This document shows positions 11,118-39,063 of a stretch of DNA of 64,000 nucleotides, piece after piece. The notes beneath the pieces were generated by a model, which worked only from the letters and a program-made list of their open reading frames with translations, made no database searches and was not told where the DNA came from. This stretch comes from Roseivivax jejudonensis (lineage in GTDB: Bacteria; Pseudomonadota; Alphaproteobacteria; Rhodobacterales; Rhodobacteraceae). The stretch spans positions 62,001-126,000 of the forward strand of contig NZ_FWFK01000008.1 of NCBI RefSeq assembly GCF_900172265.1, in the 5' to 3' direction. The translations under genes and the position numbers were made by a program. Positions within the stretch are counted from its first letter, which is position 1. Each line of letters starts with the position of its first letter.

Positions 11118-11138
11118 TCCTTGGATTTGTCGTGGACG

Positions 11139-12791: not shown

Positions 12792-12868
12792 CTTGCGGCT
12801 CCAGAGTTTGCTGGGTCAAAAATACTTGCAACGGCGCGTTGAAAAACGACCGACAACGGAACATCTCA

Positions 12869-12882
12869 TTCCAAATTCGGAA
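12869..12882. promoter_or_regulatory. near-palindrome TTCCAAATTCGGAA, candidate LysR site
   Basis: A 14-bp dyad in the roughly 110-base divergent gap between the AhpD-like gene and the LysR gene. The same half-site sequence recurs as TTTCGAATTCGGAA at 14301-14314, upstream of the small exported protein. LysR regulators bind such A/T-centred dyads next to their own genes, so autoregulation and control of the cluster are inferred. Confidence 0.5.
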
Positions 12883-12900
12883 CAGTTGGCGTGCGGCGAA

Positions 12901-13815: not shown

Positions 13816-13946
13816 ACCTCAAACTGTCGATGCTGGTATTTTCTCATTGGAGAAGATTTCGTTTTTCGAAAGAGGGTCGAAGGCAATGGAAATATGCGAA
13901 GCGGTTGGTACCGCTCCGCACTTAGCGTTCACCAGGCGAGCTTGGA

Positions 13947-14186
13947 TCAGCGATACTGGCGGATGAGTGACTCGAGAACAGACTCCGTGTCGCCGAAGCT
14001 GTCACCCGAGTTGAGGACGTTCATCAGCGACGCGATTTCGGTTTGGTTGAAATCGGAAAGATCAACGTCACCCACATAGGGACGAAGTTGTATTTCCGCG
14101 GACTCATACGGCGTCGCGGTTGCGGCCGATGCGCCGAATACGAGAGCGGTTGCGGCGACAAGTGACGCGAGTTTGTAGCGTGTCAT
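13947..14186 (-). CDS. small exported protein, unknown function
   Basis: A 79-residue protein with a clear Sec signal peptide: MTRYK, then the hydrophobic LASLVAATALVFGASAATATP with probable cleavage after ATA. The mature part of about 55 residues is acidic and rich in Asp/Ser/Leu (VGDVDLSDFNQTEIASLMNV), with no cysteine and no recognised domain. GAAAGGATC before the ATG is a good ribosome-binding site. A dyad TTTCGAATTCGGAA at 14301-14314 lies upstream and resembles the one beside the LysR gene, so it may be part of the same regulon. Confidence 0.7.
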   Translation of the reverse strand: MTRYKLASLVAATALVFGASAATATPYESAEIQLRPYVGDVDLSDFNQTEIASLMNVLNSGDSFGDTESVLESLIRQYR

Positions 14187-14549
14187 GTTTGATCCTTTCA
14201 GAACACTTTATATCATGGCCGACCTGGGAAGGCGCCGACCTCGTTGTTCTAAAATGCTCACGCGATCCTTGTGTTGAAGTTAGTGTAGTGGAATTGGCTG
14301 TTTCGAATTCGGAACGGATTCATCAGGTCGAGAAATTTCTAACTTGCTCAACCGGCGCGGCGCTTCCGACGCCAAATCTAGCGCATGCTAAGAGGCGCTG
14401 CTTCAACCGACCCTGATCCTACGATACCTCGCCGCCAACCGTGGCTCGAACTAAGGTCTTGAATGCCAGTTCGCCTCTGCAGCAAAGGCCTGGAAAAATC
14501 ATGATTTTTCGCTGAAGAGAGCCATCCATGTCAATCGGCAGCCAATAGA
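14187..14549. other. intergenic region upstream of the small exported gene
   Basis: No gene is seen. It holds the promoter region of the small exported protein gene, including the candidate LysR dyad at 14301-14314. It ends at the left inverted repeat of the ISL3-type element. Confidence 0.6.
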
Positions 14550-21846: not shown

Positions 21847-22746
21847 TTAGTGCATGATAGGTCGTGGTGCCAAGGCTGGGGCCGAGGGGGGCAGAGATAC
21901 GTCTCGCTTTGACGGCCAGTGGATGGCTTCCGGCGCCGAGGGTCGATAGCCCAGCGATAAGTGAGGCCGCACGGCGTTGTAGTGGACACGCCATGCTCCG
22001 ATCACGACGCGCCTCTGCGAGCGAGTAGAAGATCTCGCCGTTGAGCAGCTCGTCGCGGAGCTTCGAGTTGAAGCTCTCGCAGTAACCGTTCTCCCAAGGG
22101 TGCCGGGTTCAATGAATGCCGTCATTGCTCCCACGGCATCAATCCAGCCCCGAACAGCTATGGCAATGAACTCCGGTCCGTAATCCGAGCGAACATGTCC
22201 GGGCACACCTCGCAAGATGAACAGGTCGGTCAGGACGTCGATCACCGCAGTCGAGTTCAGTTTCCGGTCGATGCTGATCGCCAGGCATTCCCGGGTGAAC
22301 TCGTCGATCACGTTGAGCCTGCGGAACTTCTTCCCGTCATGGGTCCGGCTCTCGACGAAGTCGTAGGACCAGACATGGTTCGGCCGTTCCGGCCTTAGAC
22401 GGATGCATGACCCGTCACCCAGCCGGAGCCGGCTCTTATTTGGCTGCTTTTGTGGAACTTTCAGCCCCTCCCATCGCTACATCCGCTCAACGCGCTTGGT
22501 GTTCACGATCCAGCCGACATCCCGCGGCATCGCTGCAATCCGACGATAGCCGTAGCGGCCGTACTGGGCGGCGAGCGCGATGACGTCCGCGGTCAGCGCG
22601 TTCTCGTCAGCTCGCACTCGCGGCACCTTGCGCTGCGTCGAGCGATGCTGGCCGAGCACAAGGCAGGCTAAGCGTTCCGAGACGCCGAACTTCTGCCTGA
22701 TGTGGTCGATGCACCGACGGCGGCGGGCGGGGCTTAGAAGTTTCCC
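21847..22746 (-). pseudogene. IS3-family transposase OrfB (stop plus two frameshifts)
   Basis: The DDE transposase reads from the slippery site through LLSPARRRRCIDHIRQKFGV and RYGYRRIAAMPRDVGWIVN, then meets a TAG at 22478 where the family has Trp (VERIW). The core continues with RPNHVWSYDFVESRTHDGKKF, LNVIDEFTRECLAI and VRSDYGPEFIA. Around 22100 the frame shifts (PWENGYCESFNSKLRDELLNG is in another frame) and shifts back near 22015 (VVIGAWRVHYNAVRPH). One nonsense change and two compensating indels leave it non-functional. Confidence 0.85.
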
Positions 22747-23012
22747 GAGGCGGCCTCTCGCAGGATCAGCTTCTCGAGCGTCAGGTCGGAGACCGCCTTT
22801 CGCAAACGCTCATTCTCCTTCTCGAGCTCTTTCAGCCGCTTCACCTGGTCGGTCTTCAGGCCGCCGAACTCCCTGCGCCGTCGATAGTAGGTGAACTGTG
22901 TCACGCCGATCGACCGCACAGCCTGGGCCACCGACTGGCCTTGCGATACCAGCACGTCGACCTGCCGAAGCTTCGCGAGGATCTCTTCCGGCTTGTGTCT
23001 CTTCTGGGGCAT
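22734..23012 (-). CDS. IS3-family transposase OrfA
   Basis: The 92-residue DNA-binding part of an IS3 transposase: MPQKRHKPEEILAKLRQVDV, then a helix-turn-helix (QSVAQAVRSIGVTQFTYYRRR) and a leucine zipper-like helix (LKELEKENERLRKAVSDLTLEK), ending LREAASGNF. It is intact. OrfB would be made by -1 frameshifting at GGGAAAC near its end, but OrfB itself is broken. Confidence 0.85.
   Translation of the reverse strand: MPQKRHKPEEILAKLRQVDVLVSQGQSVAQAVRSIGVTQFTYYRRRREFGGLKTDQVKRLKELEKENERLRKAVSDLTLEKLILREAASGNF
22740..22746 (-). promoter_or_regulatory. GGGAAAC slippery heptamer for -1 frameshifting
   Basis: The classic X-XXY-YYZ heptamer G-GGA-AAC lies in the OrfA frame two codons before its stop, where the OrfB frame (AAA CTT CTA AGC) takes over. 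Known IS3 elements make OrfAB this way. Confidence 0.75.
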
Positions 23013-23084
23013 CTTTGCATCTTCCAAATGGCTCGTAAGCCATACTTCAGGGAGGATCAATTTTCAGGCGGCAGGCCACGAGCG

Positions 23085-25407: not shown

Positions 25408-26292
25408 ATGCCACCTGCGAACCTGAACGCCCTGCGTGTCTTCTCTACCGTGGCGGAGCACGGCAACATCCAGTGTGCAGCCGAGGTTCTGAACCTCTCG
25501 CGAGGAGCGGTGTCGCAGAGGATCAAACAGATCGAACTCGAGATCGGAACACCGCTCCTCGTGCGGGGCGCGCGCGGCGTATCCCTCACACCTGCCGGCA
25601 AGCGTTGCCATGCGGCGATGACCGAAGCGCTCGCCATCATCGACAGCGCGCTTTCAGACGTCGCCGGGCACGACGGCTGGATCACCCTGCATATCGGTCC
25701 GTCCTTCATGGCGAAATGGATGATGCCGCGGATGGAGCGGTTCAGGAAGGCCTTCCCATGGGTCTCGCTTGCCACGGAGATTCATAACCGGGTGATGGAT
25801 CGCGGCCTAGGACGCGGCGAGATCGCCATCTGGCCTGACACCGCCCCCGATCCGAACCCCGCCCATCAGAGCCGACATCTCACAGAACTGCGCCTTGCCG
25901 CCGTGTGCAGCCCCGACTTCCTCCGCCCCGATTGGCCGATGGGGCCGGAGACGCTGTTGACCCTGCCGCTCCTTCAGGACGGGCATCGCCGTTGGGATCG
26001 GCTGGCCGAGGCCACCGGACAGCGTCCGGCGCATGCCCCTCTCAACTTCGGCCGCTCGGCGCTCGCGCTGGACGCGGCCATGAACGGGCACGGCGTGGCG
26101 ATTGCGCCCCACCACATGATCGAGGCGGACCTACGCGCCAAGCGGCTCGTGGAAATCTGGTTTCCTCCGGAGCCCTCTAATGAGGGCCTGTATATGTCTT
26201 GGGCAAAGGAGCAGAATGGCGGGCGGCATCTCCGTCGCGTCGTGGACTGGTTCCTCGTGGAGTTCGGGCAAGGCCACAGACGGCAGGAATGA
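25408..26292 (+). CDS. LysR-family transcriptional regulator
   Basis: 294 residues from MPPANLNALRVFSTVAEHGN. The winged helix (IQCAAEVLNLSRGAVSQRIKQIE, residues 20-43) is followed by an effector domain of the GcvA type (WITLHIGPSFMAKWMMPRM, GRGEIAIWPD, GRSALALDAAMNGHGVAIAP). ATG at 25408 gives the usual length; the open frame extends to 25327 without a convincing ribosome-binding site. It lies divergent from the tandem GNAT gene and is probably its regulator. Confidence 0.9.
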   Translation: MPPANLNALRVFSTVAEHGNIQCAAEVLNLSRGAVSQRIKQIELEIGTPLLVRGARGVSLTPAGKRCHAAMTEALAIIDSALSDVAGHDGWITLHIGPSFMAKWMMPRMERFRKAFPWVSLATEIHNRVMDRGLGRGEIAIWPDTAPDPNPAHQSRHLTELRLAAVCSPDFLRPDWPMGPETLLTLPLLQDGHRRWDRLAEATGQRPAHAPLNFGRSALALDAAMNGHGVAIAPHHMIEADLRAKRLVEIWFPPEPSNEGLYMSWAKEQNGGRHLRRVVDWFLVEFGQGHRRQE

Positions 26293-26378
26293 AGCGTTGG
26301 GACAGTTTCAGATTTATGCCCGGCTGAACGGACTTTAGAGCCTTGCGCAGCGGATGCCCGTTCCGTCCTGCCTAGCTG

Positions 26379-28112
26379 TCATGCGGCGAGCAGATCTCGG
26401 CGATACACCAGCCCTCTCGCCAACCCGATCTTCATGGCAGGCGTTGCGCCGCTCCGGTCCGAGGCGGGCAGCATGTAGTTGTGGTAGAAGCGCAGGATGT
26501 TCGCGACGCGCGGAAACATGGCCGGCTCGTAGATGCTGTAGGCATGCCAGATGCGGCCCGCGTTCGCGCGGGTCGGAATGCCCCGCTCGAACCCCGCAAC
26601 GCGCCGCCGGGCAAAATTGAAGTAGGCATCGACAGGGTGAATCGAGGCTCGGCACAGCACGTCCGCCAGCTCCAGGAAGCCGTGCTGGCCGAGATCGGTC
26701 CTCAGCCGGATCGTCTTTTCCGGCTCCGCCTTGGTGTGGAACGGCCAGCGCAGGCCCTCACGCATCAGCAGGTCTCCTCTCGCTGCCGGGTCGAGCTCAC
26801 CGAGCCGGTCTTCGAGGACGGCCGCGACGAGGGCCTGCAGCTCGGGCACATCGTGCCTCGCGACGGTGTCGGCCACGGCCGCCTGATGCTCCTCCAGCAG
26901 CTCGCGGCGAACCTTCCGGCCCCGATCAGCATATTCGTTGCGAAGATCGTTCGTCATACCCTTGGTGAAGCTCACCTCGGCGATGTCCACACGCCGCTCT
27001 GCGACTTCGGGCTGGAAGATCGCCGAGGTCGCCGCGGCCAGCCCGGCTTCGGCATCGAGACAGAAGAGCGCGCGCTCGAAATCCTGACCAAGCAGTTTTT
27101 TCACAAGCATCATGTGCGCGTGCATGAAGATGTCTGTGCGCACGCGGGATCCTGTTCCGGGCAATCTCCACTGGCCGCCAACGGCCAGGTCGTCTTCCGA
27201 AAAGATCGCGCGGTTCATTCGCAACAGGCCGGCTTCATACTCCCGCGCCGACCAGAGACGCGCCTGCCGGCGCATCGACCGCGGGAGTGCGAAGTCGCCG
27301 GACTGGATCATCTCCTCGTCCACGCGTTTGGGCGAAACGGACGGATCGTAGTCGACCGTGGCCGCCATGATGAACTGGCTGCCCTGATGCACCGTCGCCA
27401 TGTGAAGCAACGGGATCGTGCCGCGGCGCCGTTTGACCGGCCAGTTCACGAGGATGACCTGCGCATCGGTGGCGAAGCAGGGGGCCGAAGCCCGGAAGCA
27501 GTCTGCAAGGCGCTCTTCGCGCCGGGCGGCAAACTTGAGGCACTGCTCCTCTAGGAATTCGATCTTGTTGTAGATATGGCCGTAAGTGACGCCCAGCGTC
27601 TCCCGGATACGACTGATCGGCACCTTGTTGACCAATGATACCAGGATGTCGCCGGTTCGATCCGTCTTCTTGTGCCGGCGCGTCGGCGAGCCCTGCGAGA
27701 AGGTCGCCCTACAGATCTTGCACTGGTGCCGCTGGTCGCCCCGGGCAGTCCGTCCCGCGCCGCGGTAGGCACTTGGAGCAAGGGCCAGCGGGAGGTCGAA
27801 GTTCGGACAGGACGCGGTCCGGCAGGACGGGAAAAACTTTTTCCTATACTGACGGGACAGCCGGGAGTATTCCTCGGCGATAGCGGTGTTCGACTTGAGG
27901 ATGTTGAAGCCGTCGCATGCGGGGCACCGAAATGTTCGGTCTTCGCCGGAGCCAACCACCCGGCCGTGATCCTGGTCGCCACCGCGGCGTCCTCTGACAG
28001 AGAACGGGTGCGGAAGAAGCCCGAACCGGTCGCAATGCGGGTTGCGGCAGAAGTTGACGCTGAAGCCGCCGACCAGTCAGGGAAGGCGTATTTTCGGCGT
28101 CGAATAATTCAT
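26379..28112 (-). pseudogene. zinc-ribbon transposase-like gene with in-frame TGA
   Basis: The long frame has an N-terminal zinc region (FCRNPHC, then FRCPACDGF, CPNF, QCKIC), a helix-turn-helix (ISRIRETLGVTYGHIYNKIEFLEE), a probable RNase H-type catalytic region (CFATDAQVILVNWPVKRR; RALFCLDAEAGLAAA) and an IS-like C-terminus (FYHNYMLPASDRSGATPAMKIGLARG). From ATG at 28112 (MNYSTPKIRLP) the frame meets TGA at 28077-28079 and continues with LVGGFSVNFCRNPHC. A GTG at 27959 would give 526 residues without the first zinc pair. Either an early nonsense mutation or a start after the stop is possible. It lies next to hairpin element B. Confidence 0.6.
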
Positions 28113-28164
28113 CGAGACGTTCTTGGCGGCACCAACTCCTCAAATGTCAGTAATTCAAAGCTCG

Positions 28165-28190
28165 AGAGCCGCCCACTTGGGGGCGGCTCT
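28165..28190 (+). terminator. GC-rich hairpin, part of element B
   Basis: Stem AGAGCCGCCC / GGGCGGCTCT with a short loop, followed by GCGAATTTTC. It is terminator-like on the plus strand and lies just upstream of the conserved motif of element B and 82 bases before the XRE gene. Confidence 0.6.
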
Positions 28191-28231
28191 GCGAATTTTC
28201 AACATTTATCTGAGGGGCTGGGCCCGGTACC
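28191..28231 (+). repeat. hairpin-plus-motif element, copy B (motif part)
   Basis: TTTCAACATTTATCTGAGGG, then GCTGGG and GGTACC, directly after the hairpin at 28165-28190. It matches copy A at 23388-23446 in inverted orientation; the shared core TCAACATTTAYCTSAGGGGC has two differences. Confidence 0.6.
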
Positions 28232-28271
28232 ATCTCTTCAACCACTCGAACAGGACAAGGGGAATGCGATC

Positions 28272-28553
28272 ATGGGTGCAATTCGAGAACGCCTCCGCAA
28301 GACGCGGCCAGACGTCGAAGAGCAGCTTCTCCTCAACAAGGACAAACGCGCTCTGGCGCGGGTGGCAAGCCGGGCCCGAAAGCAACAGGGTTTGACCATT
28401 GATGCTTTGGCCGCTGCGAGCGGGCTGTCGGATGACGAGGTCCTCGCGATCGAGGCTCCGACCGGGGAACTGCCAAGCCTCAAGAGCCTATTTGCGTATG
28501 CCGAGGCTTGTGGCTTGAGGCTCAACATCAGTTTCGTTCCGGCGACTGAGTAG
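28272..28553 (+). CDS. XRE-family helix-turn-helix protein
   Basis: Small DNA-binding protein of 93 residues. ATG at 28272 follows AAGGGGAA. An N-terminal helical segment (MGAIRERLRKTRPDVEEQLL) precedes the helix-turn-helix ARVASRARKQQGLTIDALAAASGLSDDEVLAIE (residues 31-63), and the tail is GLRLNISFVPATE. This resembles HigA-like antitoxins or small regulators of plasmids and phages; no adjacent toxin gene is visible. It follows element B. Confidence 0.75.
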   Translation: MGAIRERLRKTRPDVEEQLLLNKDKRALARVASRARKQQGLTIDALAAASGLSDDEVLAIEAPTGELPSLKSLFAYAEACGLRLNISFVPATE

Positions 28554-29033
28554 TGTTCAAGGCACCTGTCGCCTGCATCTATTCATGAACAGGACGCAGA
28601 ATGTTAAAGATGGTACATTGGTTTGAGTGCTGCTGCGCGCTCAAATCTTTTTCCTGGCACTTTGCGAATGACCGACGAAGAGATACTCTATCTGTTTGCT
28701 AATGTTTTGAGATCGGTGCTCGCTACGATCGGACGCAAAATCGAATTTTGATATCTGTCGAGTCTTGGTGATTTCGAGGCCAATGTCGATACTTAACCAG
28801 CAACAAAAGGTAATATCGAAAGCACAGCTGCTGAGATGTTTTAAAACGTTTTGAGTGATGGCCCGAACTGAAAGTGTCGTGGATCACTTTCGAAGTGAAT
28901 AGACATCCACCAGATGCGCAGAAGATTCAAACTGTTTGGGACAGTTGTCAATTTTAGTAGGTGTACGAAAGATGCGATTGCGCTAGTGCTGGATAAACGT
29001 AAGAAGCCGATCGATCGGTGCGGCTTTCCAAGG
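28554..29033. other. intergenic region left of tniQ
   Basis: About 480 bases, AT-richer than the surroundings, with no gene. A hairpin AAGCCG...CGGCTT at 29004-29026 lies just past the tniQ stop and may terminate that gene. The left boundary of the Tn7-like element may be here, but I could not identify a terminal repeat. Confidence 0.5.
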
Positions 29034-30875
29034 CTAGTCCGCCCTCATCGCTCGTGCATCAGCGTAATCCCTCGAGAAAATCTGGCCGTTGGGTTGTGAT
29101 GGTGAATTGAAGCTCGTCAAACCTAACCTTCGGATTTCGGCTTCGATCGTCCGGCAGTTGACTCCGCGCTCTTTCGCAAGGCTTGTCACGGTAAAGAAGC
29201 GTTTGTGGAACGCTTCCGCATCCTCTCCAGTGATATAGTGCTGCTTTCTACCAGAAACGGGATTCTTTTGCTTCGTCGCCGGAGTATGTCCTTCAGCCAC
29301 GAACTTAGCGAAAGCTCCGTTCTCCCGTATTCCAATGCTTCTCGCGAATTCAGCCAACGTTGGTGGTCGTTTGTCCCTCAATTTCTGAACGAGAGCCTCA
29401 GGTACGAACACAGCTGCATAGCCCCAATATCTCGGATGTTTCCCAATCAGTTCAGTTCCAGCTTCAACGTGCTGAACGATGTCAGCCGGAGATATTCCAG
29501 ACAGTCTGGCGGCCGTGTGAATGTGGCACCATCCCTTCGAGTCGACGTTCAACGAAACCGCTTTAGACAGCAGGCGCTCCAACAGGCGCGCGCCGTCATA
29601 GGGTCGCCAAGGTCTATGGGCTGTGCCGACTTCCAGCGCAGGCTGAATCAATCCGCATGACATCATCGCCCGTAGTTGCGCCTTCGTCGCGTTGATCTGA
29701 GCCATGAATTCTCTTGTGGTGACCATGGTCCGGATGTCGGAAGTAATTTCGGATAGGTGTGACGCGGCGAACGTTTCATGAGAAGAATGTTGTTTGACCT
29801 CTTTAAGTAGCACGCCTCGCTCGATTAGGGCCTTTCTAAGGGTCCCTTGGTGAATGCCGCTTTCTGCGCTAGCCGAGCTAAGCGAGTGTAGGCGGCGTCC
29901 GGTGAGGGTTTTTCCGAGCACACATTCGCCAGGGCCGAAGGGCCATATACCCAAGATGACGTCCCTCAGAAGGTTCTGGAGTTCTGCAACTCCCTGTTTG
30001 TTTTCAAGATCCTGGGCGAGCCACGTGTAAAGACTTCCGTACGCGCCGCGCGGCCCCTTGCCCTTTTTGAATCCCGTTCGCCCAAGATCTCGCAGGACGT
30101 CGGTAGCATGGTACTTTCCCGCGTCCAGAACCTTGAACCCGAGAGCGCATGACTCCCGCTCCTTGGGTGACACAATTGGCGATGATGCGTCTACATGTTG
30201 ATCCCGAATTCGTCCTCCCAGGAGCCGGCAGAACGTGGCCGCACTATGGACCGGCAACTCGGCCAACCACGTGGCGTCTTCGCCGGTCTCCAAACGTTTG
30301 TCGAGCCAGGTGTCGTAGGCTGTCACGGGCACCGACAATGGCGTGAGCTCGCCCGACATCAGACGTGCCGAGACGTCGCGAAGCCGGGACGCGAGATCAT
30401 ACCGCCGCGAAGGCAAATTTTCCGACCAAATCGGAACGAGCGGACGGCCGTGGAATCGGCAAACAGCGACATGCCGCACTTGCCAATCGCCTCGCATAAT
30501 CATGCAGCGAACGGGCTCTTCCCCGGATGCTTCCGCGTCTTCCATTAGGCAGCATGGACATCCGCGGACGGTTGGATGTCGGATCGCGCGCGAGACCATT
30601 GTTTCTCCGCGGAACAACATTCGAACGTCGCCAAGCCTGCGTCCGGTCCAGGACACCAGCTCGTCAAGCTCGGCGCCTGTAAGATCACAGATCAAGCCGA
30701 TGTGCTCGATGGCGGCGTCATTGGTGTCAATGATCCTCTTGAACGACGTACCCATGTCGAACGCAAACTCGTTCGGAGTGACTCCATTCATCGACGCAGC
30801 CCGCGAAAGGAAGGACAGGAACGTTTCTCTTGAGGCTGGCCTCGGACGCCGTTTGAGAGTTTCTTTTGCAGCCAT
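29034..30875 (-). CDS. tniQ: TniQ/TnsD-family transposition targeting protein
   Basis: Target-selection protein of Tn7- and Tn5053-type transposons. From ATG at 30875 (MAAKETLKRRPRPASRETFLSFLSRAA) it is 613 residues; the frame runs up to 31109 but that part is AT-rich and not protein-like. The TniQ domain covers the first 160 residues with the zinc signature RGCPCCLMED...RGDWQVRHVAVCRFHGRPLVP. The long C-terminal half has at least two helix-turn-helix-like segments (HIHTAARLSGISPADIVQHVEAG; TVTSLAKERGVNCRTIEAEIRRLG), which could read a specific attachment site. It is divergent from the tnsABC-like operon. TnsD-like length suggests sequence-specific targeting; this is inference. Confidence 0.85.
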   Translation of the reverse strand: MAAKETLKRRPRPASRETFLSFLSRAASMNGVTPNEFAFDMGTSFKRIIDTNDAAIEHIGLICDLTGAELDELVSWTGRRLGDVRMLFRGETMVSRAIRHPTVRGCPCCLMEDAEASGEEPVRCMIMRGDWQVRHVAVCRFHGRPLVPIWSENLPSRRYDLASRLRDVSARLMSGELTPLSVPVTAYDTWLDKRLETGEDATWLAELPVHSAATFCRLLGGRIRDQHVDASSPIVSPKERESCALGFKVLDAGKYHATDVLRDLGRTGFKKGKGPRGAYGSLYTWLAQDLENKQGVAELQNLLRDVILGIWPFGPGECVLGKTLTGRRLHSLSSASAESGIHQGTLRKALIERGVLLKEVKQHSSHETFAASHLSEITSDIRTMVTTREFMAQINATKAQLRAMMSCGLIQPALEVGTAHRPWRPYDGARLLERLLSKAVSLNVDSKGWCHIHTAARLSGISPADIVQHVEAGTELIGKHPRYWGYAAVFVPEALVQKLRDKRPPTLAEFARSIGIRENGAFAKFVAEGHTPATKQKNPVSGRKQHYITGEDAEAFHKRFFTVTSLAKERGVNCRTIEAEIRRLGLTSFNSPSQPNGQIFSRDYADARAMRAD

Positions 30876-31577
30876 GAACAGCGAGAGCAAGTGATTGGGT
30901 GTGAAGTTCCTCCCGTACAGGAGCCAGAGTCCACGTAGCCATTCGGCAAAGCAAGGAAAAATTTTATCCGAGAAGCCGAAAGTCGGCGACAAGAATTTGC
31001 GAAAAAATGAGACAGAAAGTTTTTCGCAAAATCCAGAATCCAAAACTGAGCCAAGCGAGTCCAAGGAAAATATAGGAATTTCCATGGCTTGAAAGGGCGA
31101 GTGTCTCATTTGGGAATTTTCCGCGGAGTAAATTTACCTGCGGCCGATCGGTTTTTCGCAAATTTGGCGGTGGGAGGAATTCCGCTCGATCGAAAATAAG
31201 GCGCTCGACACACCGCAAAATTTGTGTATTTGAAAGAATCACTAGTTTTCGCAAGAACGTTGGAACGAGCAAGAGAAAGGGAGAAGTCAAGGAAAGTAAG
31301 GGCAAAACGAACAAAGCCCAGCCGTTGGCCCGGCTGAGCTTTGAGGATCAGAGCTTAGAGGTCCCGATCGAGTGTCTGAAGACGAGATAGCGTAACCGCT
31401 GATCTCGCGCAAGAGGTATTTTTCAGGCCTTCTCTGCTCCCCGTGGAGCTGCCGGACCTTGACGGGTGCGGCAGCACCCTCGGGCACATCCGAGAATATC
31501 TTCCGAGCGGTCACGACGACCGATGCTCGGTGATAACAACGGTTTTGCGCGGCCTGAGAGCCGCGAACGGAGAGAAC
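30876..31577. other. repeat-rich divergent region between tniQ and tnsA
   Basis: About 700 bases, lower in GC than either side, with no convincing gene. It carries several copies of TTTTCGCAAATT-like words: inverted at 30994-31005, direct at 31020-31031, 31151-31162, 31213-31223 and 31245-31255. A strong hairpin is at 31312-31343. In Tn7 the end next to tnsA holds several TnsB sites and overlaps the promoter, so these may be transposase sites or operators. Confidence 0.55.
31312..31343. terminator. 13-bp stem hairpin upstream of tnsA
   Basis: CAAAGCCCAGCCG pairs with CGGCTGAGCTTTG across a 6-base loop with one mismatch. On the minus strand it is followed by TTCGTTTTG, so it could terminate leftward transcripts or insulate the tnsA promoter. 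The role is inferred. Confidence 0.5.
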
Positions 31578-32351
31578 ATGCCTTCAGAAGATGATATATT
31601 CACGAGCGAGCTAACCTTCGAGTATCCTCCTGCTTGCTACGATACCGCACCGTTTGAGGCGGTTCCGCTAGCGAGCCCGACAGATCCGGATGAAGTCTAT
31701 CCAACCCACTTGAAAAAGGTCGAGCCCGGGAAGTCTTCGAGATCGTTCCGAATTCTCGCCACGATTCGCCCGCACCGGAAATCAATGCTCCAACAAGTTT
31801 GGTGCGCAAGTCAGGAGGAGTATGGGGTGTGCCTATGTCTTGCGGCGCATCCGGAAGTTGTGGGGCTGCGAGAACAGTTTGCAAGATTAAAGTACCGAAA
31901 ACCAAACGGAAGGCCAGGTTCGACACTGGTCGATTTCCTCTGCCTGAAGCGAGATGGAAGCCAAGTCTACGTTTCCGTAAAGTATCCTCAGAAGGCGCGG
32001 CGCGCGTCGTATCGCAGTGAAGTTGAGGAAATCGCGAGGCAGGCGATCACGTCTAGCTCCGAATCATTTGCGATCGCCTCCCGACAATGCTTCGGTTCTA
32101 GGTATTTGAAAAAAGCTCAAATGATCCACTACGTCCGGAAGGGATGGGATCCGGAGGCCGATAAGATTGTACTTCGTCAGGTACCGCCCGACACGAAACA
32201 ACGATCCATCGGAGAAGTCTTGGCCGGCTCCGATCTTGAGTATGGCCGCGCGTTTCGAGCCATAGCAAGATTGATCGGAGACGGAGATGTGCAGATCGGA
32301 TTCTACGACCCGATCGAAGATGCAACGAATTGCTGGAGAGCCTCGCTATGA
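31578..32351 (+). CDS. tnsA: TnsA-like transposon endonuclease
   Basis: Endonuclease subunit that nicks the 5' ends of Tn7-type elements so they move by cut-and-paste. ATG at 31578 (MPSEDDIFTSELTFEYP) has CGGAGAGAAC upstream; 257 residues. The N-terminal nuclease fold is recognised from CASQEEYGVCLCLAAHPEVVGLREQ (catalytic Glu in EEYG), STLVDFLCLKRDG (catalytic Asp) and VYVSVK (Lys), the E-D-(Q/E)xK order of TnsA. The C-terminal part (YLKKAQMIHYVRKGW...GRAFRAIARLIGDGDVQIGF) matches the winged-helix half. Its stop overlaps the next start (ATGA). It differs from Tn5053 and Tn402, which have no tnsA. Confidence 0.8.
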   Translation: MPSEDDIFTSELTFEYPPACYDTAPFEAVPLASPTDPDEVYPTHLKKVEPGKSSRSFRILATIRPHRKSMLQQVWCASQEEYGVCLCLAAHPEVVGLREQFARLKYRKPNGRPGSTLVDFLCLKRDGSQVYVSVKYPQKARRASYRSEVEEIARQAITSSSESFAIASRQCFGSRYLKKAQMIHYVRKGWDPEADKIVLRQVPPDTKQRSIGEVLAGSDLEYGRAFRAIARLIGDGDVQIGFYDPIEDATNCWRASL

Positions 32352-34588
32352 CGCGGTCACTTCCGGTAAGGCAACTCACGGACATGGACTACGCAGTCTT
32401 TGAGGGGCGCGATGTTCTTAGCATAACTCCGGAAAGGCACGGAGAGAGCACGGCGGTAACTCACTACAGGCTGGCGGTGAAGAATGAAATTGACGGCTTC
32501 GATGTCCGATTGTTTCAAGTAAATGAAGTGAGGGAATTAATTCAGGAGCAGAGGCTTCTTGTTGATTACGACTACTTCACGGAGGCGCGTCGAAGAGACC
32601 GAGAGGTTCGGAGTACGGGTGAACTGTACGGCGCCACAAACAAGGTGCGACGCGACGTTGGAAGAAAAGTCTTTCTCATGGAGAGGCTGGACCGCCTTCG
32701 TTTAGAAGGGTTGAATCTGACACGAGAGAGCGTCGACGAATTCCGTGTCTCCTTGGAAGTTGAATATGAGAAATATCAAGCTCAAGTTGAGCATGGCGTT
32801 AAAAAGGCAACCGCACAACATGCATTGAGGCGTCTACCTGCAAGTAGTACGCTTTTGGAATGGTATCGTAGATGGCGAAGTTCGGGAAGGAATCCCAACT
32901 GTTTTGTTTACAATGTCCGAAAGTGTAAAAATAAAACTCTTGAGAAAAGAATTGACGAAGCCAAGATCCAGCGTATCATATCGGAATGGGAGAGGTCGCC
33001 ATCACAAACAATTAAAGCGGCTGCAAAAAAAATCAATAATTTGGTGCTAAAAACGAATAGAGCTCGCAGGGAGCGAGGCAGAACGGACCTCATGCCGGAG
33101 CGATGCTTTCGGACTTACGAGAATTGGATCAAGGACCGTTCAGACCCTTTTTCCGCGACCATGCACAAGAAGGGGCGCGGGCGGGCAATTCAAAAGTTCG
33201 GAACCAGCGAAGGTGGCCGCACGGTTCGGATTCCCGGCGCCGAGGTCGAGTTCGACGCTTGGAATATTCACGCAGTTGTTCTGGACGTGAGCCGGGAGCG
33301 GTGGCTGACTATGACAGAGGCGGAGCGTGAGAAAGTGCCTCGTGTAAGACTATGGCTCGTCATAGCAATTGATGTAGCAACGCGTGTGGTATTGGGATTC
33401 TCAGTTTGTAAGAACCCAAACGCGGCTGCGTCGCTGGAAGCTCTGAGGCTCTGCTTCTTGGATAAGACTTACCTGCTCCGTGCGGCTGGACTCAATGATT
33501 CGGATGCCACCTGGAACTATTCGGTAAAGATGGCTGCAAGCGTTAGTGATTCCGGTTCTGAGTTCGGTAGAGAGCCGTTTGGCGGGCACCTGTTTATCGC
33601 GGCGCATAGAATAATGGGAATTACCTGCGCGACAACCCCAACTGCATCGCCATCGGCAAAACCTTATGTAGAGACCAGTTTCCGAACGTTTGACCTACTT
33701 GGTGTGAGAAACTGGCCGGGTGCAACCGGCAGTAATATTTCGGATCGGGGGGACAGGGATCCCTCCGCACAAGCATGTTTGACGCATGATGAGGTGCAGG
33801 AATTAATTATCCTCCACATTGCCGAATATCACAATCGTCCGCATAGCGGCTTGGATGGTATTACACCAGCAACAGCCTGGGAGAACGCGACCTCGTTGCC
33901 TGAGTATGACGACGAAGCAGCGCACTGCCCTGGTCGCATCAGAGAGGCTTGCGGCTACAAAGCGAAGGCAACGATCACGAAATATGGTATCAGGTATGAG
34001 AATAACCTCTATGTTAATGGGGATGTCAGAGACGAGCGCGTTCGACCCTATGGGAGTAGGAGCTCGTCTCGTAATGGGGAGGTTGATATCGTCGTAGATC
34101 CGTTTGATTTAGGCGCAATTTCAATTGTTACCGCCAAAGGACTTATCGGGATCCCCTGCATTGACAAAACAATGTGTGGAAAGTCGTTGCGCACCTGGCG
34201 GCGTGAGCGCATGGAGAAAAAGATAAAGTCGAATTTGGACGCTGAGAGGCGTTCAGGAGTGTTGTCGGGGGCGCGAGAAGCGTGGCGAAGTATCTTGTCT
34301 ATTGCGACCCAACGGATTGATGTCGGCCTCTCTGGATATTCTGACGGTGAGGTGATGTTGGAGAAAAATTTACTCTGGGTTGGGAAGGGGCAACACGAAG
34401 AACCTTATATCGGAAAGGATGAGGGGCGCGATCCGCTTGCCAACGGCTTCCGCGGCGACCTGGGCGAGGATACAACCCGTCCGAAGCGTAGTCCCCGAAA
34501 AAGTTCCTCCAAAGCTGAGGTCAAGTCTGATCCTTTATCGCGCTATCGCCGCAAGAGTTCGGATGATGGATCGAGGGGTCAGGAATGA
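32348..34588 (+). CDS. tnsB: TnsB/TniA-family DDE transposase
   Basis: Catalytic transposase of the Tn7/Mu/Tn5053 superfamily, 746 residues from MTRSLPVRQLTDMDYAV. The N-terminal DNA-binding domains cover about 1-290. The integrase core has VEFDAWNIHAVVLDV (first Asp) near residue 300, LWLVIAIDVATRVVLGF, VSDSGSEFGREP (second Asp) near 400, and KPYVETSFRTFDL (Glu) near 440, then YHNRPHSGLDGITP and a basic Ser-rich tail that may contact the ATPase. The gene overlaps tnsA and tnsC by 4 bases each (ATGA), so the three are one coupled operon. Confidence 0.92.
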   Translation: MTRSLPVRQLTDMDYAVFEGRDVLSITPERHGESTAVTHYRLAVKNEIDGFDVRLFQVNEVRELIQEQRLLVDYDYFTEARRRDREVRSTGELYGATNKVRRDVGRKVFLMERLDRLRLEGLNLTRESVDEFRVSLEVEYEKYQAQVEHGVKKATAQHALRRLPASSTLLEWYRRWRSSGRNPNCFVYNVRKCKNKTLEKRIDEAKIQRIISEWERSPSQTIKAAAKKINNLVLKTNRARRERGRTDLMPERCFRTYENWIKDRSDPFSATMHKKGRGRAIQKFGTSEGGRTVRIPGAEVEFDAWNIHAVVLDVSRERWLTMTEAEREKVPRVRLWLVIAIDVATRVVLGFSVCKNPNAAASLEALRLCFLDKTYLLRAAGLNDSDATWNYSVKMAASVSDSGSEFGREPFGGHLFIAAHRIMGITCATTPTASPSAKPYVETSFRTFDLLGVRNWPGATGSNISDRGDRDPSAQACLTHDEVQELIILHIAEYHNRPHSGLDGITPATAWENATSLPEYDDEAAHCPGRIREACGYKAKATITKYGIRYENNLYVNGDVRDERVRPYGSRSSSRNGEVDIVVDPFDLGAISIVTAKGLIGIPCIDKTMCGKSLRTWRRERMEKKIKSNLDAERRSGVLSGAREAWRSILSIATQRIDVGLSGYSDGEVMLEKNLLWVGKGQHEEPYIGKDEGRDPLANGFRGDLGEDTTRPKRSPRKSSSKAEVKSDPLSRYRRKSSDDGSRGQE

Positions 34589-35574
34589 GTGAAGATCGCA
34601 CTCAATTTGTTCTTTCCGAAGGCGCGCGGATTAGACTGGCGTCGGACACAAAAGCCCGCTTGGCTAGCTTGTTTTTTCCAACCGATGACTATCGAGAAGT
34701 GATGAAAAAGGTGTTTCAGGTCCTTCAGGCGCGCGAAGCGAGCATGGCGCTAGGACGTATGGTCGCCACCGGTGTCGTTGTTGTGGGTCCTTCGGGAGCT
34801 GGTAAGTCGAGATTGATCGAGGAGGTCGTAAAGGATTACGAGACCTTTGCATGTGGGGGAGTAGCGCAGAAATTCGGTACAAACATCGTGACAAGCGTAG
34901 TTCCGGGTAAAGCGTCGATCAAGGCGATGCTGGAACGGCTTCTCCGGGATCTTGGCTACCCAATTCAGCGAAATCTAAGTGAGAATGAACTTCAGTCCAG
35001 GTTGGTCTTCCAACTGAAGGAACAGCGCATCGCCGCGCTTCACCTTGATGAAGTTCAAGATGTAGGGCGACACCGAACGGACGATAGCTACGACCGATTC
35101 ACAAAAAAGTTCCGGAACCTTATGCAAGATCAGGATTGGCCGGTCTGTCTCATATTGTCCGCAACACCAGAAGTTAAGACGTTCATCAATCACGACCGAA
35201 CGCTGACGAGAAGGCTGCTTGCGCACGAGATGAACTCGCCCAAAATGAAGGACTCCGGGACGCTGAGGTGCGCTACGAATACCTTGCTCGCTGAAGCGGG
35301 GCTTCGAGATGTCGGGTTGCTCAGTTTTGACGGGTTCTTCGAGATCTTGAGGCACGCTGCTTGCGATTGTTTCGGTCAGTCGATTCATCTGACCATTCAG
35401 GCGATGGGTTTGGCTAAGGAGCAAGGCGCCGAACTCATTGATGCAGATCACTTCGCGGAAGCCTACTCTATCGAGACCAACTGCGCAGATGACCATAACC
35501 CTTTCATTGTTCAGGAGTGGCATCTCATCGATACACGCAAGGCGATGGAACGCGCGAGGCGCGAGGACCTCTAG
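34585..35574 (+). CDS. tnsC: TnsC/TniB-family AAA+ ATPase
   Basis: Transposition regulator that links the target selector to the transposase. 329 residues. Walker A is VVVGPSGAGKSRLIEE near residue 68, Walker B AALHLDEVQDVG near 150, a sensor region ICLILSATPEVK is read as VCLILSATPEVK near 185, and the arginine-finger segment RTLTRRLLAHEM is near 210. It matches the TniB/TnsC branch in length. It ends the operon and is followed by two hairpins, the second a strong intrinsic terminator. Confidence 0.92.
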   Translation: MSEDRTQFVLSEGARIRLASDTKARLASLFFPTDDYREVMKKVFQVLQAREASMALGRMVATGVVVVGPSGAGKSRLIEEVVKDYETFACGGVAQKFGTNIVTSVVPGKASIKAMLERLLRDLGYPIQRNLSENELQSRLVFQLKEQRIAALHLDEVQDVGRHRTDDSYDRFTKKFRNLMQDQDWPVCLILSATPEVKTFINHDRTLTRRLLAHEMNSPKMKDSGTLRCATNTLLAEAGLRDVGLLSFDGFFEILRHAACDCFGQSIHLTIQAMGLAKEQGAELIDADHFAEAYSIETNCADDHNPFIVQEWHLIDTRKAMERARREDL

Positions 35575-35601
35575 CTCGGTTCCGCTAGCCGGTTGGAGCT
35601 G

Positions 35602-35648
35602 ACCGGCATCAAGGCCGGCATTTTTCGCCCCTCGGGGCGATTTTTTTT
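35602..35648 (+). terminator. terminator of the tnsABC-like operon
   Basis: Two successive hairpins: CCGGC-loop-GCCGGC followed by TTTTT, then TCGCCCC-TC-GGGGCGA followed by eight T residues. This is a textbook rho-independent terminator 50-75 bases past the tnsC stop. Confidence 0.92.
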
Positions 35649-35680
35649 GACCTATCCGAATTTGAGGGCCGGTGCTGGGG

Positions 35681-35743
35681 TTTCGTAGGTCAGCCGTGAG
35701 GTTTCGTCGATCAGCAGGTGAGTTTCGTCTCGGAAGACGTAAC
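35681..35743. repeat. three tandem 21-bp direct repeats, candidate transposon end
   Basis: TTTCGT recurs at exactly 35681, 35702 and 35723. The first two units are TTTCGTAGGTCAGCCGTGAG and TTTCGTCGATCAGCAGGTGA (plus one base each); the third keeps only the start. A weaker unit begins at 35661. Spacing and tandem arrangement are like the overlapping TnsB-binding sites at a Tn7 end. No matching copy was found left of tnsA. Confidence 0.6.
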
Positions 35744-36204
35744 GTGTTGATAAAAATACGTTCTCTTTCGATTCGGATCTGTCTTTCCACTTCGTTCTCC
35801 AGCAGTCTCAGAAAAACGATCAGTATCAGCGCGTAATCCGGCGCCGATCGGTCGGAGCCGACGCAGGTCGCGCTGTCAGTCCAGCGAGCATGTCCACGCG
35901 GAGTCCGGAGCATATCGCGCCCTCCGAGGGGCGCTGCCACGAACGTCGGACGGAGCGAGGTGCTGTCGCTGTCTCCTCGGCAGACCGGGGCACCTGACGC
36001 AGATTTTATCTGGATTTCAGAGGGCGACCGCTCCGGTCGCGGGCCGTGCGGTCGGGCCGGAGCCGGTCACGCAAGGCTCCGGCTGCGCCGCACGCGCGGG
36101 CGAGTTGGCGGGGCGGCACGCGCAAGGAAATGTCGCCACGCTCTTGAGCCTCGGGCGAAACTTCCGCATCAAAGGGAAACGATCAAGCCAAGCTGGGGTG
36201 GCCC
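35744..36204. other. intergenic region upstream of the Mrp operon
   Basis: No gene is seen. It contains the presumed outer limit of the Tn7-like element (near 35743-35800) and the promoter region of the Mrp operon. Several GC-rich inverted segments (for example around 36040-36100) are present. Confidence 0.5.
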
Positions 36205-39063
36205 TTGTCCCTGATCCTCGTCGTTCTCATGCCGTTTCTGGGCGCTCTGCTGCCCGGCGTCCTGTATCCGGCGGGTCGGCGGACCTGTGCGCTGGGCACT
36301 CTGGCCGTGTCGGTCATCGCCCTGATCGGGCTGGCCTCGAACCTGCCGGCGCTTCTCAACGGAGAGGTGGTCACCCAGAGGATCGAGTGGCTGCCGGCGC
36401 TGGGCCTGAACGCGACCTTCTTTCTCGATCCGCTCGGCGCGTTCTTCGCCACCCTGATCCTCGGGATCGGCTGTCTGATCATCGCCTATGGGCGCTACTA
36501 CCTGTCGCGCGACGACGACATGGGCGAGTTCTACACCTACCTGCTGCTGTTCCAGGGCGCGATGGTGGGTATCGTCCTGAGCGACAACATCCTGATGCTC
36601 CTGGTGTTCTGGGAACTCACGTCGCTGTCGTCGTTCCTGCTGATCGGCTATTGGCGCCACCTGCCGGAAGGGCGGCAGGGCGCGCGCATGGCGCTGGCGG
36701 TGACCGGCATGGGCGGGCTCGCCCTGATCGGCGGGATGCTGATCCTCGGCCAGATCGCCGGGTCCTATGACCTGACCGTGATCCTGGAGAACCGCGACGC
36801 GATCCAGTCGTCGGACCTGTACCTGCCTGCATTGATCCTGATCCTGCTGGGCTGTTTCACGAAGTCCGCGCAGTTCCCGTTCCATTTCTGGCTGCCGCAC
36901 GCGATGGCCGCCCCGACGCCGGTGTCGGCCTACCTGCACTCCGCGACGATGGTGAAGGCCGGAATCTTCCTGATGGCGCGGCTGTGGCCGGTGCTGTCGG
37001 GGTCCGAGGCGTGGTTCTGGCTCGTGACGGGCGCGGGGCTCATCACGGTGGTGCTCGGCGCGGTGATCGCGCTCTTCAAGCATGACCTGAAAGCGCTCCT
37101 GGCGTTCTCGACGGTGTCGCACCTCGGGCTCATCACGATGCTGCTGGGCACCGGGACGGCGTTCGGCGCGATGACGGCGATCTTTCACATCCTCAACCAC
37201 GCGACGTTCAAGGCCGCGCTCTTCATGTCGGCCGGCATCGTCGATCACGAGGCGCATACCCGAGACATCCGCAAGCTCGGCGGGCTGAGGCACCTGATGC
37301 CGGTGACGGCCACGATCGCCACGCTCGCAGCGCTGTCGATGGCGGGCATCCCGCTCTTCAACGGGTTCGTGTCCAAGGAAATGTGGCTCGAGGAGGCGCT
37401 GCACACGACGCTGTTCGGGCCGGAGTGGCTGGTGCCGGCGGTCGCGACGGTGGGGGCACTGTTCTCGGCGGCGTACTCGTTCCGGTTCATCTTCCACACC
37501 TTCTTCGGCAAGGAGCGGCACGACTACCCGAGCCATCCGCACGATCCGAACCCGGGCATGTGGCTGCCGCCCGCGTTCCTGGTGTCGCTCGTGCTCCTGA
37601 TCGGGCTTGCGCCGTTCCTGGCGGAACCGCTGGTGAAGGGCGTGACCGGGGCGGTTCTGGGCAGCGCCGCGGAGGTGCCGGAGTATCACCTCGCGATCTG
37701 GCACGGCTTCAAACCGCCGCTCTATCTCTCCGCGGTCGCGGTGGCGGGGGGCATCCTGCTTCTGCTCTTGCATCGCTGGCTGCAGAAGGGCTGGGACGTG
37801 GTGCCACGGCCCGAGGCCAAGACGATCTTCGACGGCGTCATCGCGGGCTGCGTCTGGGTCGCGCGCCGGGTGACCTGCGTGCTGCATGACGGAGCGTTCA
37901 CGCGCTACGCGGCGATCCTGTCGGTGGCGATCCTCGCCGCGGCGGTGCATGCCTTCCTGACGGGCACGACGGGCCCGGCGACACGTGCGATGCAGCCGCC
38001 GAGCGTGGTCGCCATCGCGACATGGGTGATGCTGGTCGCCGCGACCGGGTTCCTCGTCTTCGTGCACCGCCACCGCTTTGCCGCGCTCATCCTGATCGGC
38101 ATCATCGGCCTTATCGTGTCGGTGGCCTTTGCCTTCTTCTCGGCGCCCGACCTCGCGATGACGCAGATCTCGGTCGAGGTGGTGACGGTGGTGCTCATGC
38201 TCCTGGCGCTGAACTTCCTGCCCAAGACCACCCCGGTCGAGAGCGGAATGCTGCGTCGGGCGCGCGACGCCGTGATCGCGTGCGCCGGCGGGATCGGCGC
38301 CGGGGCGCTGGCCTACTTCCTGCTGCTGCGCGATTTCGTGTCGGCGCCGATTTCGGAGTATCACCTCGAGAACTCGTATGCCGGCGGCGGCGGCACGAAC
38401 GTTGTGAACGTGATCCTCGTCGACTTCCGGGGCTTCGACACGTTCGGCGAGATCATCGTTCTGGGCATCGCGGCGATGGTGATCTACGCGCTGACGGAGG
38501 CGCTGCTGCGCGGTCCGGTGCGGGCGCGGCTTCTCAACCGCGTGCCGGAAACGCCGCTGGCCGGCGACCGGCATCCGCTGATGATGGTGGTGCTGACGCG
38601 GGTCATCATGCCCGTGCTGCTGATGATCGGCGTCTACATCTTCCTGCGCGGGCACAACATGCCCGGCGGCGGCTTCATCGCCGGTCTGGTGGTCGCGGTG
38701 GCCATCGTCCAGCAATACATGGCCTCGGGTTATGCCTGGGCCACGCAACGCCAGCGGTTCCCGTATCACGGCATTGTCGGGGCCGGCGTCCTGATCGCCG
38801 GGCTGACCGGCATCGGGGCGTGGTTCACCGGGCACGAGTTCCTGACCTCGTCCTTCACCTACATCAAATTGCCACTGCTCGACGAATTCGAGGTCGCCTC
38901 GGCGATGGGCTTCGACCTCGGCGTCTTCCTCGCGGTGCTGGGCGCGGTGCTTCTGTCGCTCGAGAGCTTCAGCCGGATGGCTCGCCGCGCCTATACCGAG
39001 GAGTCCGAGTACGCGATGGACATCGACCCGTCGCGCGAGAACCGGACAGGGGGAACAGACTGA
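36205..39063 (+). CDS. mrpA: Mrp antiporter fused subunit A/B
   Basis: Largest subunit of the multisubunit sodium(potassium)/proton antiporter Mrp (also Mnh, Pha, Sha) of the inner membrane. 952 residues. The NuoL-like part has VFWELTSLSSFLLIGYW near 135, STPVSAY-type sequence APTPVSAYLHSATMVKAGIF near 235 and LKALLAFSTVSHLGLI near 295. The C-terminal 170 residues are the MrpB domain (RVIMPVLLMIGVYIFLRGHNMPGGGFIAGLV), as in the alphaproteobacterial fused form. The start TTG at 36205 has only a weak ribosome-binding site; no better in-frame start is seen. First gene of the operon. Confidence 0.94.
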   Translation: MSLILVVLMPFLGALLPGVLYPAGRRTCALGTLAVSVIALIGLASNLPALLNGEVVTQRIEWLPALGLNATFFLDPLGAFFATLILGIGCLIIAYGRYYLSRDDDMGEFYTYLLLFQGAMVGIVLSDNILMLLVFWELTSLSSFLLIGYWRHLPEGRQGARMALAVTGMGGLALIGGMLILGQIAGSYDLTVILENRDAIQSSDLYLPALILILLGCFTKSAQFPFHFWLPHAMAAPTPVSAYLHSATMVKAGIFLMARLWPVLSGSEAWFWLVTGAGLITVVLGAVIALFKHDLKALLAFSTVSHLGLITMLLGTGTAFGAMTAIFHILNHATFKAALFMSAGIVDHEAHTRDIRKLGGLRHLMPVTATIATLAALSMAGIPLFNGFVSKEMWLEEALHTTLFGPEWLVPAVATVGALFSAAYSFRFIFHTFFGKERHDYPSHPHDPNPGMWLPPAFLVSLVLLIGLAPFLAEPLVKGVTGAVLGSAAEVPEYHLAIWHGFKPPLYLSAVAVAGGILLLLLHRWLQKGWDVVPRPEAKTIFDGVIAGCVWVARRVTCVLHDGAFTRYAAILSVAILAAAVHAFLTGTTGPATRAMQPPSVVAIATWVMLVAATGFLVFVHRHRFAALILIGIIGLIVSVAFAFFSAPDLAMTQISVEVVTVVLMLLALNFLPKTTPVESGMLRRARDAVIACAGGIGAGALAYFLLLRDFVSAPISEYHLENSYAGGGGTNVVNVILVDFRGFDTFGEIIVLGIAAMVIYALTEALLRGPVRARLLNRVPETPLAGDRHPLMMVVLTRVIMPVLLMIGVYIFLRGHNMPGGGFIAGLVVAVAIVQQYMASGYAWATQRQRFPYHGIVGAGVLIAGLTGIGAWFTGHEFLTSSFTYIKLPLLDEFEVASAMGFDLGVFLAVLGAVLLSLESFSRMARRAYTEESEYAMDIDPSRENRTGGTD

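Follow-up and report, generated by a model that had tools for sequence, protein, structure and literature searches.

The window analyzed here is a 64,000-nucleotide stretch of the Roseivivax jejudonensis genome (contig NZ_FWFK01000008.1; G000:C12:62001-126000, where G000 is the organism's own genome), and it contains a Tn7-like transposition module of four genes. The frames of tniQ, tnsA, tnsB, and tnsC are all open in the open reading frame (ORF) list, and ATGA overlaps can be read in the sequence between tnsA and tnsB (32348-32351) and between tnsB and tnsC (34585-34588), with tniQ divergent from this operon (Table 1). A sequence-only reading of the same DNA had described a coupled tnsABC operon and a divergent 613-residue TniQ, and the ORFs, the Pfam matches, and the sequence bear this layout out. 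With a probability of about 0.8, the locus represents a Tn7-like core reduced to four genes, the TniQ of which would read a fixed site, and it belongs to a Rhodobacterales clade with relatives situated past tRNA-Arg, tRNA-Trp, or nrdJ genes.

The start of tnsA is, in our judgment, most likely the ATG at 31578, which gives a protein of 257 rather than 302 amino acids; a ribosome-binding-site-like GGAGAG lies just 5' of this ATG, and the region conserved in relatives begins downstream of it. TnsA matches Pfam TnsA_N (PF08722) with an E value of 9.4e-6; its score of 26.5 bits equals the cut-off and becomes 27.0 bits from the shorter start, and only 5 of the 11 members of this TnsA family match PF08722. 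Residues E99, D119, and K135, which we take to be catalytic by analogy with Tn7, are invariant in an alignment of 11 sequences. Because the TnsA sequence profile matched no sequence in the PDB, a predicted model (predicted local distance difference test [pLDDT] score of 78) was used for a PDB fold search. Its four matches at an E value of ≤0.001 are three chains of Tn7 TnsA and one chain of the TnsABCD transpososome, and Tn7 TnsA 1t0f is matched with an E value of 4.8e-8 and a template modeling (TM) score of 0.39. On this predicted model, TnsA is identified as having the Tn7 TnsA fold, the point on which the sequence-only reading had let its claim depend.

TnsB reaches 21.1 bits with Pfam Mu-transpos_C, just under the cut-off of 21.7. 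It is 36% identical to two relatives, with D306, D404, and E445 invariant (numbering from 32339), and the best PDB matches of its profile are the TnsB proteins of the type I-F3 CRISPR-associated transposons (CASTs) Tn6677 and PseCAST (E value of 1e-16). TnsB relatives at an E value of ≤1e-8 occur in 63 of 295 genomes of the family, the own genome included; two besides the own genome (G217 and G118) reach 37 to 38% identity, and at ≤1e-60 only the own genome is retrieved among 385 genomes of the class. In trees of 39 and 40 TnsB sequences, the window and nine Rhodobacterales relatives form one clade on a long stem, with a Shimodaira-Hasegawa-like approximate likelihood ratio test (SH-aLRT) support of 100, and the window sequence falls outside the other nine members (support of 94). 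The TnsBs of Tn402, a Tn6022-like element, and Tn7 fall elsewhere, those of Tn402 and the Tn6022-like element grouping together (SH-aLRT of 99) and being separated from that of the window by a branch with a support of 100. Two partial I-F3 TnsBs, present in the second tree, also lie outside the clade and outside the alphaproteobacterial group. These are quick, midpoint-rooted trees in which the Tn7 and I-F3 rows are long branched or partial. Both trees leave out L080 (short ORF) and L044 and L051 (broken), and the second also leaves out L052 (long branch); L072, L078, L079, L081, L082, and L086 (no, cut, or broken TnsB) were never entered, and L073 is the same gene as L053. The TnsB phylogeny, which the sequence-only reading had proposed as a check, places the protein outside the Tn5053/Tn402-type and Tn6022 families.

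The clade loci belong to Rhodobacteraceae Alg231_04 (G217; L053, L073, and L070), G118 (L054 and L067), Pseudodonghicola (L074), Sagittula (L075), Salipiger (L077), Pacificibacter (L076 and L085), L083, and Pelagimonas (L084), with a decayed relic in Tateyamaria (L072). A scan of genome contigs with a single TnsB gave no match, and a scan with a TnsC alignment (two peptide patterns) gave 15 loci, all in genera that we take to be Rhodobacterales. Judged from these sequences, the window appears to be a deep branch of a Tn7-like group found only in the order Rhodobacterales.

TnsC matches Pfam TniB (PF05621; E value of 5e-13) and AAA_22, contains Walker motifs read from the alignment, and is 41 to 42% identical to its relatives. 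TniQ matches Pfam TniQ (PF06527; E value of 5e-21) over residues 9 to 146 of 613 and is 33% identical to the TniQs of L068 and L070 and 38% identical to those of L087 to L089. Helix-turn-helix (HTH)-like segments had been proposed for its C-terminal half; visual inspection makes them plausible, although no match to a Pfam HTH family attains the cut-off there. The single-sequence structure model of TniQ is uninformative (pLDDT of 38). The module had also been described as free of CRISPR and Cas genes. No 18-mer occurs three times with CRISPR-like spacing anywhere in the window, and no Cascade gene lies beside the tnsABC operon; for Cas genes the statement holds among the eight window proteins scanned with Pfam, the other window ORFs not having been scanned.

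Table 1. Features of the transposition module and its borders, in window positions
Feature	Position	Strand	Description
Xre-type HTH gene	28272..28553	+	93 aa; at the tniQ-side boundary, 3' end towards the element; Pfam HTH_3, E value of 3.2e-6
tniQ-side boundary interval	28465..28603		Base composition only; no end sequence recognized
tniQ/tnsD	29034..30875	-	613 aa; N-terminal TniQ domain (Pfam TniQ) and long C-terminal half
Gap between divergent tniQ and tnsA	30876..31577		0.7 kb; from the ORF list
tnsA	31578..32351	+	257 aa; PD-(D/E)XK-type endonuclease; Pfam PF08722, fold match, invariant E99/D119/K135
tnsB	32348..34588	+	746 aa; DDE transposase; identity to relatives, PDB profile matches
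tnsC	34585..35574	+	329 aa; AAA+ ATPase; Pfam TniB/AAA_22, identity to relatives
Intrinsic-terminator-like hairpin and T-run after tnsC	35626..35648	+	Read from the sequence; likewise in relatives
Three 21-bp direct repeats, TTTCGT core	35677..35739	+	Candidate TnsB binding sites; repeats of relatives in the same place
TTGAT motif and predicted tnsC-side terminus	35746..35801	+	Placed by the 56-base spacing of relatives; composition step nearby

The anatomy of the tnsC side was taken from 14 of the 15 TnsC loci, with the relic L072 left aside. A G+C stretch and a T-run follow tnsC in all 14, as do two to five copies of TGTCG, the last of which lies in the terminus, 205 to 230 bp past the tnsC stop. 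The terminus is a constant 56 bases from a TTG motif in 11 of these relatives, L079, L082, and L083 having no motif there. In many relatives, the same site, present as two inverted copies, and a terminus can be recognized by eye after tniQ. Both termini are flanked by an identical 5-bp duplication in G118 (CTATT; 18.6 kb) and G686 (GTTGT; 39.4 kb), and G217 has both termini and a TTGGC duplication, with its ends on two contigs. G694 has both termini and no clean duplication. For G693 and G695 the tnsC-side end was found and no tniQ-side end, and their tniQ and tnsABC may not be one element. Two tnsC-side-type ends also face each other, 6 bp apart, in G693 (L130; C1:2364644-2364699), which we read as tandem or nested insertions at one site. 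The orientation of tniQ, taken by the sequence-only reading as a peculiarity of this locus, is the usual plan of the clade, as tniQ is divergent from tnsA in five of the six relatives that have both on one contig; the exception is Sagittula, where two ends point the same way and tniQ is not divergent from tnsABC. What differs is the spacing between tniQ and tnsA, 0.7 kb in the window versus 9 to 33 kb in the five relatives.

Among 33 TniQ loci examined, 19 were counted; the 14 others are duplicates (L105 and L116), a second view (L104), a fragment (L101), loci with an identity of ≤26% (L102, L103, L108, L110, L111, and L114), or loci with no match (L109, L112, L113, and L115). Among the counted loci, L067 is interrupted by an IS110-type element, and L070, L096, L100, and L107 are partial. 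An intact tRNA gene (tRNA-Arg CCT, tRNA-Arg TCT, or tRNA-Trp) lies within 370 bp of the match end in 6 of the 19 distinct TniQs, a tRNA fragment was recognized by eye beside two more (L067 and L088), and nrdJ, named by NCBIfam NrdJ_Z (E value of 5.5e-178), adjoins another three. The gap from terminus to tRNA is 12 to 19 bp, with the 3' end of the tRNA towards the element, in all four cases measured, and for nrdJ, 25 to 26 bp separate the terminus from the match end in both cases measured; no clade terminus is seen in L092 and L107, two of the six tRNA-linked rows.

One quick tree of few TniQ rows places the tRNA-Arg(CCT)/tRNA-Trp rows and the nrdJ rows in separate supported groups and the tRNA-Arg(TCT) rows in a third, weakly resolved group. 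The near-identical TniQs of L087, L088, L089, and L067 adjoin either tRNA-Arg(CCT), intact or as a fragment, or tRNA-Trp(CCA), with tRNA-Arg at L087 and tRNA-Trp at L089, which suggests that one TniQ reads a feature common to the two tRNA genes. It looks as if related TnsABC cores are paired with TniQ subfamilies that track different neighbors. The window TniQ sits on a long branch next to the nrdJ-linked group (SH-aLRT of 96), and an nrdJ-like target may be conceivable for it from this position. The nrdJ of the own genome adjoins another TniQ, of 610 aa and 33% identity, at the start of contig C14 (L068, 1-4720). No cognate TnsB was found for this second TniQ, the own-genome TnsB search retrieving the window gene and a distant 26% match on C9.

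The window copy occupies a base composition island that extends from approximately 28576 (28465-28603) to 35837 (35815-35853) and encloses just the four genes. On its tnsC side, an equally spaced 6-mer triple like that of the repeats was obtained in 1 of 500 shuffles of the repeat stretch and in 2 of 117 equal window tiles. Because the composition step lies 14 to 52 bp beyond the predicted terminus at ∼35801, the exact tnsC-side end is uncertain. In a profile test the window lacks termini of the TGTCGGACGACA type of the clade. The closest relative by TnsC (50%) is the broken tnsC of the Tateyamaria relic, which is followed by similar-looking repeats by eye, a possible sign of a sub-branch in which the end sequence is distinct. 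Searches for the tniQ-side end with a motif, with a terminus, and with gapped alignments stayed at chance level; an end picked by eye near 28857 to 28908 was rejected as not above chance. An Rfam scan of 26000 to 36300 at an E value of ≤5 for a tRNA relic gave one meaningless match.

The sequence-only reading had suggested that TniQ could read a fixed attachment site, perhaps beside the Mrp operon, and that related genomes be compared for an empty site upstream of it. For nine related genomes (eight of the same genus and one of the same family), the 15 to 17 kb upstream of mrp were compared with the window. Homology starts at 36119 to 36206 in the seven genomes that align there, with nothing leftward in common. 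The DNA upstream of mrp in G005 has its counterpart on contig C19 of the own genome. In G006, the DNA 1.8 to 6 kb upstream of mrp is found here inverted at C12:126632-130834, past the mrp operon by ∼22 kb, and the segment adjoining mrp has its counterpart on C6 of the own genome. A comparison of 35803 to 36204 with 60 other genomes gave only matches of 86 and 55 bp beside mrp, in two genomes of the genus, and a pair of short ones elsewhere, and that of the tniQ-side flank (28222-28860) with the same number gave a 68% match to the HTH gene and a 28-bp match, both in G002. From these alignments, the spot next to mrp appears to be a rearranged place within the genus, which may explain why no empty site was found in the related genomes and weakens the attachment-site claim. 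Mrp was rejected as the attachment site, as neither a target duplication nor an empty site was seen and the upstream DNA is not common to relatives.

In Tn7, TniQ marks the site, TnsC bridges, and TnsA and TnsB cut and join. With roles taken from Tn7, TnsB of the window would bind the end repeats and join the ends to target DNA, TnsA would cut the other strand, and the AAA+ protein TnsC would bridge both to the target, while the 613-residue TniQ/TnsD would read a fixed chromosomal site with its C-terminal half. In the clade, tnsABC usually occupies one end of the element and tniQ lies nearer the opposite one, and the elements that could be measured are situated downstream of a tRNA-Arg, tRNA-Trp, or nrdJ gene (12 to 26 bp from its 3' end), with 5-bp target duplications. 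This outcome (ends, 5-bp duplication, and recurrent neighbors) is visible in the sequences of relatives and would be expected by analogy for the window. The window copy presumably works like its relatives, with cargo lost or never gained and with a TniQ that has its own target. It is a divergent, cargo-free member of a Tn7-like clade, a known kind of machine and not a new system.

Several observations weigh against this assignment. TnsB is only 36 to 39% identical to its nearest relatives, and the fold matches of TnsA reach TM scores of only 0.39 to 0.42 by query length, the domain packing being loosely matched. The terminus profile of the clade finds no end in 10 to 45 kb of the window, and the predicted window terminus scores 2.5 on it versus 14.2 to 34.6 for the 21 training ends. 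The best agreement of the tniQ-side flank with the tnsC-side terminus is 14 of 25 positions, which is chance (shuffled mean of 13.9). With its ends only approximately located, the window copy shows no 5-bp target duplication, and no empty site emerged when the flanks were compared with 60 other genomes. No tRNA lies near the window copy, and 8 of the 19 TniQs stand beside neither a tRNA, a tRNA fragment, nor nrdJ; an adjoining tRNA or nrdJ, which the window lacks, is a trait of 9 of the 19 relatives and so not universal.

Within the Tn7-like interpretation, the mobility of the window copy is left in doubt because only the tnsC-side repeats are recognizable. The chances come close to even that it is an immobile remnant of a larger element from which an insertion sequence (IS) or a chromosomal rearrangement removed the tniQ-side end and the cargo, its four genes not yet having decayed. 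There is no second end and no duplication, the IS-like element at 26370 to 28221 adjoins, genomes of the genus differ in the DNA upstream of mrp, which includes the G006 stretch that lies inverted here ∼22 kb beyond the mrp operon, and a decayed relic with a broken tnsC, 50% identical, exists in Tateyamaria. However, the four ORFs are open and retain their catalytic residues, the tnsC-side repeats persist, and the composition island is bounded on both sides. The same island, enclosing just the four genes between 28.58 and 35.84 kb, would fit a complete, cargo-free transposon of 7.2 kb with a tniQ-side end that has diverged from the tnsC-side end beyond the reach of the search, and the tnsC-side repeats have likewise diverged beyond the clade profile. 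We regard this as slightly less likely than the remnant. Against it, six pairs of relatives' termini, of which at least the Sagittula pair is not from one element, agree at 18 to 24 of 25 positions, no duplication is seen, and 96% of Tn7-like elements carry cargo according to Benler 2021 (PMC8649781). A broader proposal, in which exchange of TniQ re-aims one TnsABC core to tRNA-Arg(CCT)/tRNA-Trp, tRNA-Arg(TCT), or nrdJ and the window is the deepest branch, a 7-kb cargo-free transposon with its own site, seems rather unlikely as a whole.

If a Tn5053/Tn402- or Tn6022-type element had acquired an endonuclease gene, the match of TnsC to Pfam TniB would be accounted for, yet this reading is contradicted by the TnsB trees (branch support of 100), and no further same-strand gene lies between tnsC and mrp, TnsF and resolvase homologues not having been searched across the window; this origin has a nearly negligible chance. 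It is also improbable, if less extremely so, that the genes form a domesticated operon that no longer transposes and serves the host. The lack of room for cargo, the open genes, and the absence of a recognizable second end would suit such an operon, but TnsB relatives at 37 to 38% identity occur in 2 of 294 other genomes of the family, a distribution that fits a mobile element, other same-genus genomes not having been searched with proteins.

Compared with known systems, the window shares with Tn7 (L125) the TnsA fold, TnsB, TnsC, and a TnsD-type selector, whereas tnsD of Tn7 follows tnsC on the same strand and its TnsB is placed elsewhere in the trees. Tn5053/Tn402 (R751; L124) and the Tn6022-like element (L126) have TniA/TnsB, TniB/TnsC, and TniQ in common with it; among the differences, R751 carries a recombinase gene, no tnsA is annotated there, and the TnsBs of Tn402 and the Tn6022-like element lie outside the clade. 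Tn6022 adds TnsF, as stated in Faure 2023 (PMC10293859). The I-F3 CASTs, the source of the best PDB matches of TnsB, differ in that the window has no Cascade gene beside the operon and in that their TnsBs (partial) are outside the clade. Type I-B2 and I-D CASTs (PmcCAST and CyCAST) have a large TnsD that homes to tRNA genes, as the relatives of the window seem to do, but the tRNAs are others, and no Cas gene is among the window proteins scanned. The literature describes this tRNA homing (PMC10293859; 2024 review PMC11406308) and the fusion of TnsA and TnsB in both types (PMC11406308). With the Rhodobacterales clade, the window shares the TnsB clade, the tnsA-tnsB-tnsC order, a tniQ that is usually divergent, and the terminator and repeats after tnsC; it differs in its end sequence, the short tniQ-tnsA spacing, the absence of an adjoining tRNA or nrdJ, and the long TniQ branch.

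The combination of TnsA and TniQ without CRISPR, which had been regarded as unusual, is common among Tn7-like elements in Benler 2021 (PMC8649781). That study gives tnsA in 92% of clade 1, compared with only 28% in clade 3, to which Tn5053 and Tn6022 belong, gives tnsD/tniQ in 73 to 97% of each Tn7-like clade, and mentions sites downstream of tRNAs. A literature search that reached few subscription papers found no description of this Rhodobacterales clade among the papers listed. Of the claim of a little-described Tn7-like lineage, the core with TnsA outside Tn5053/Tn402 and Tn6022 stands, together with the lack of a description found, while most of the grounds given for novelty fail. That TniQ seems to have been swapped between tRNA and nrdJ sites in this clade is a more useful finding than the window copy. 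If the pairing of TniQ and neighbor is true, the clade would be a natural series for dissecting target recognition by a large TniQ/TnsD without CRISPR. The window copy alone, as a compact four-gene core, is of modest value.

Further features were observed around these loci. An imperfect inverted repeat (CGCAAATTTGGCGGTG) between tniQ and tnsA, at 31157 to 31226, is possibly an operator common to two divergent promoters. The IS-like element at 26370 to 28221 encodes a 526-aa protein with a weak IS1 transposase match, and an internally deleted copy of 91 to 93% identity, resembling a miniature inverted-repeat transposable element (MITE) derivative, is present at G006:C6:346-950 (L055). The IS3-type transposase at 21847 to 23060 is split over two separate frames and so probably marks an insertion sequence that is broken. 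Another, second type of end-like sequence (GTGTGCATG..AAGCTTATG..CATTGGC) was recognized by eye in L092, L098, and L107, with tRNA sites in L092 and L107, and also just outside the tnsC ends of L074, L080, and L085; it perhaps belongs to another Tn7-like element type with a common target. Beyond the G118 element, adjoining an integrase, L067 contains a gene cluster with matches to MzaB, MzaC, and MzaD of the PADLOC library (10855-16041; E values of 2e-86, 9e-134, and 4e-18), which belong to an anti-phage defense system.

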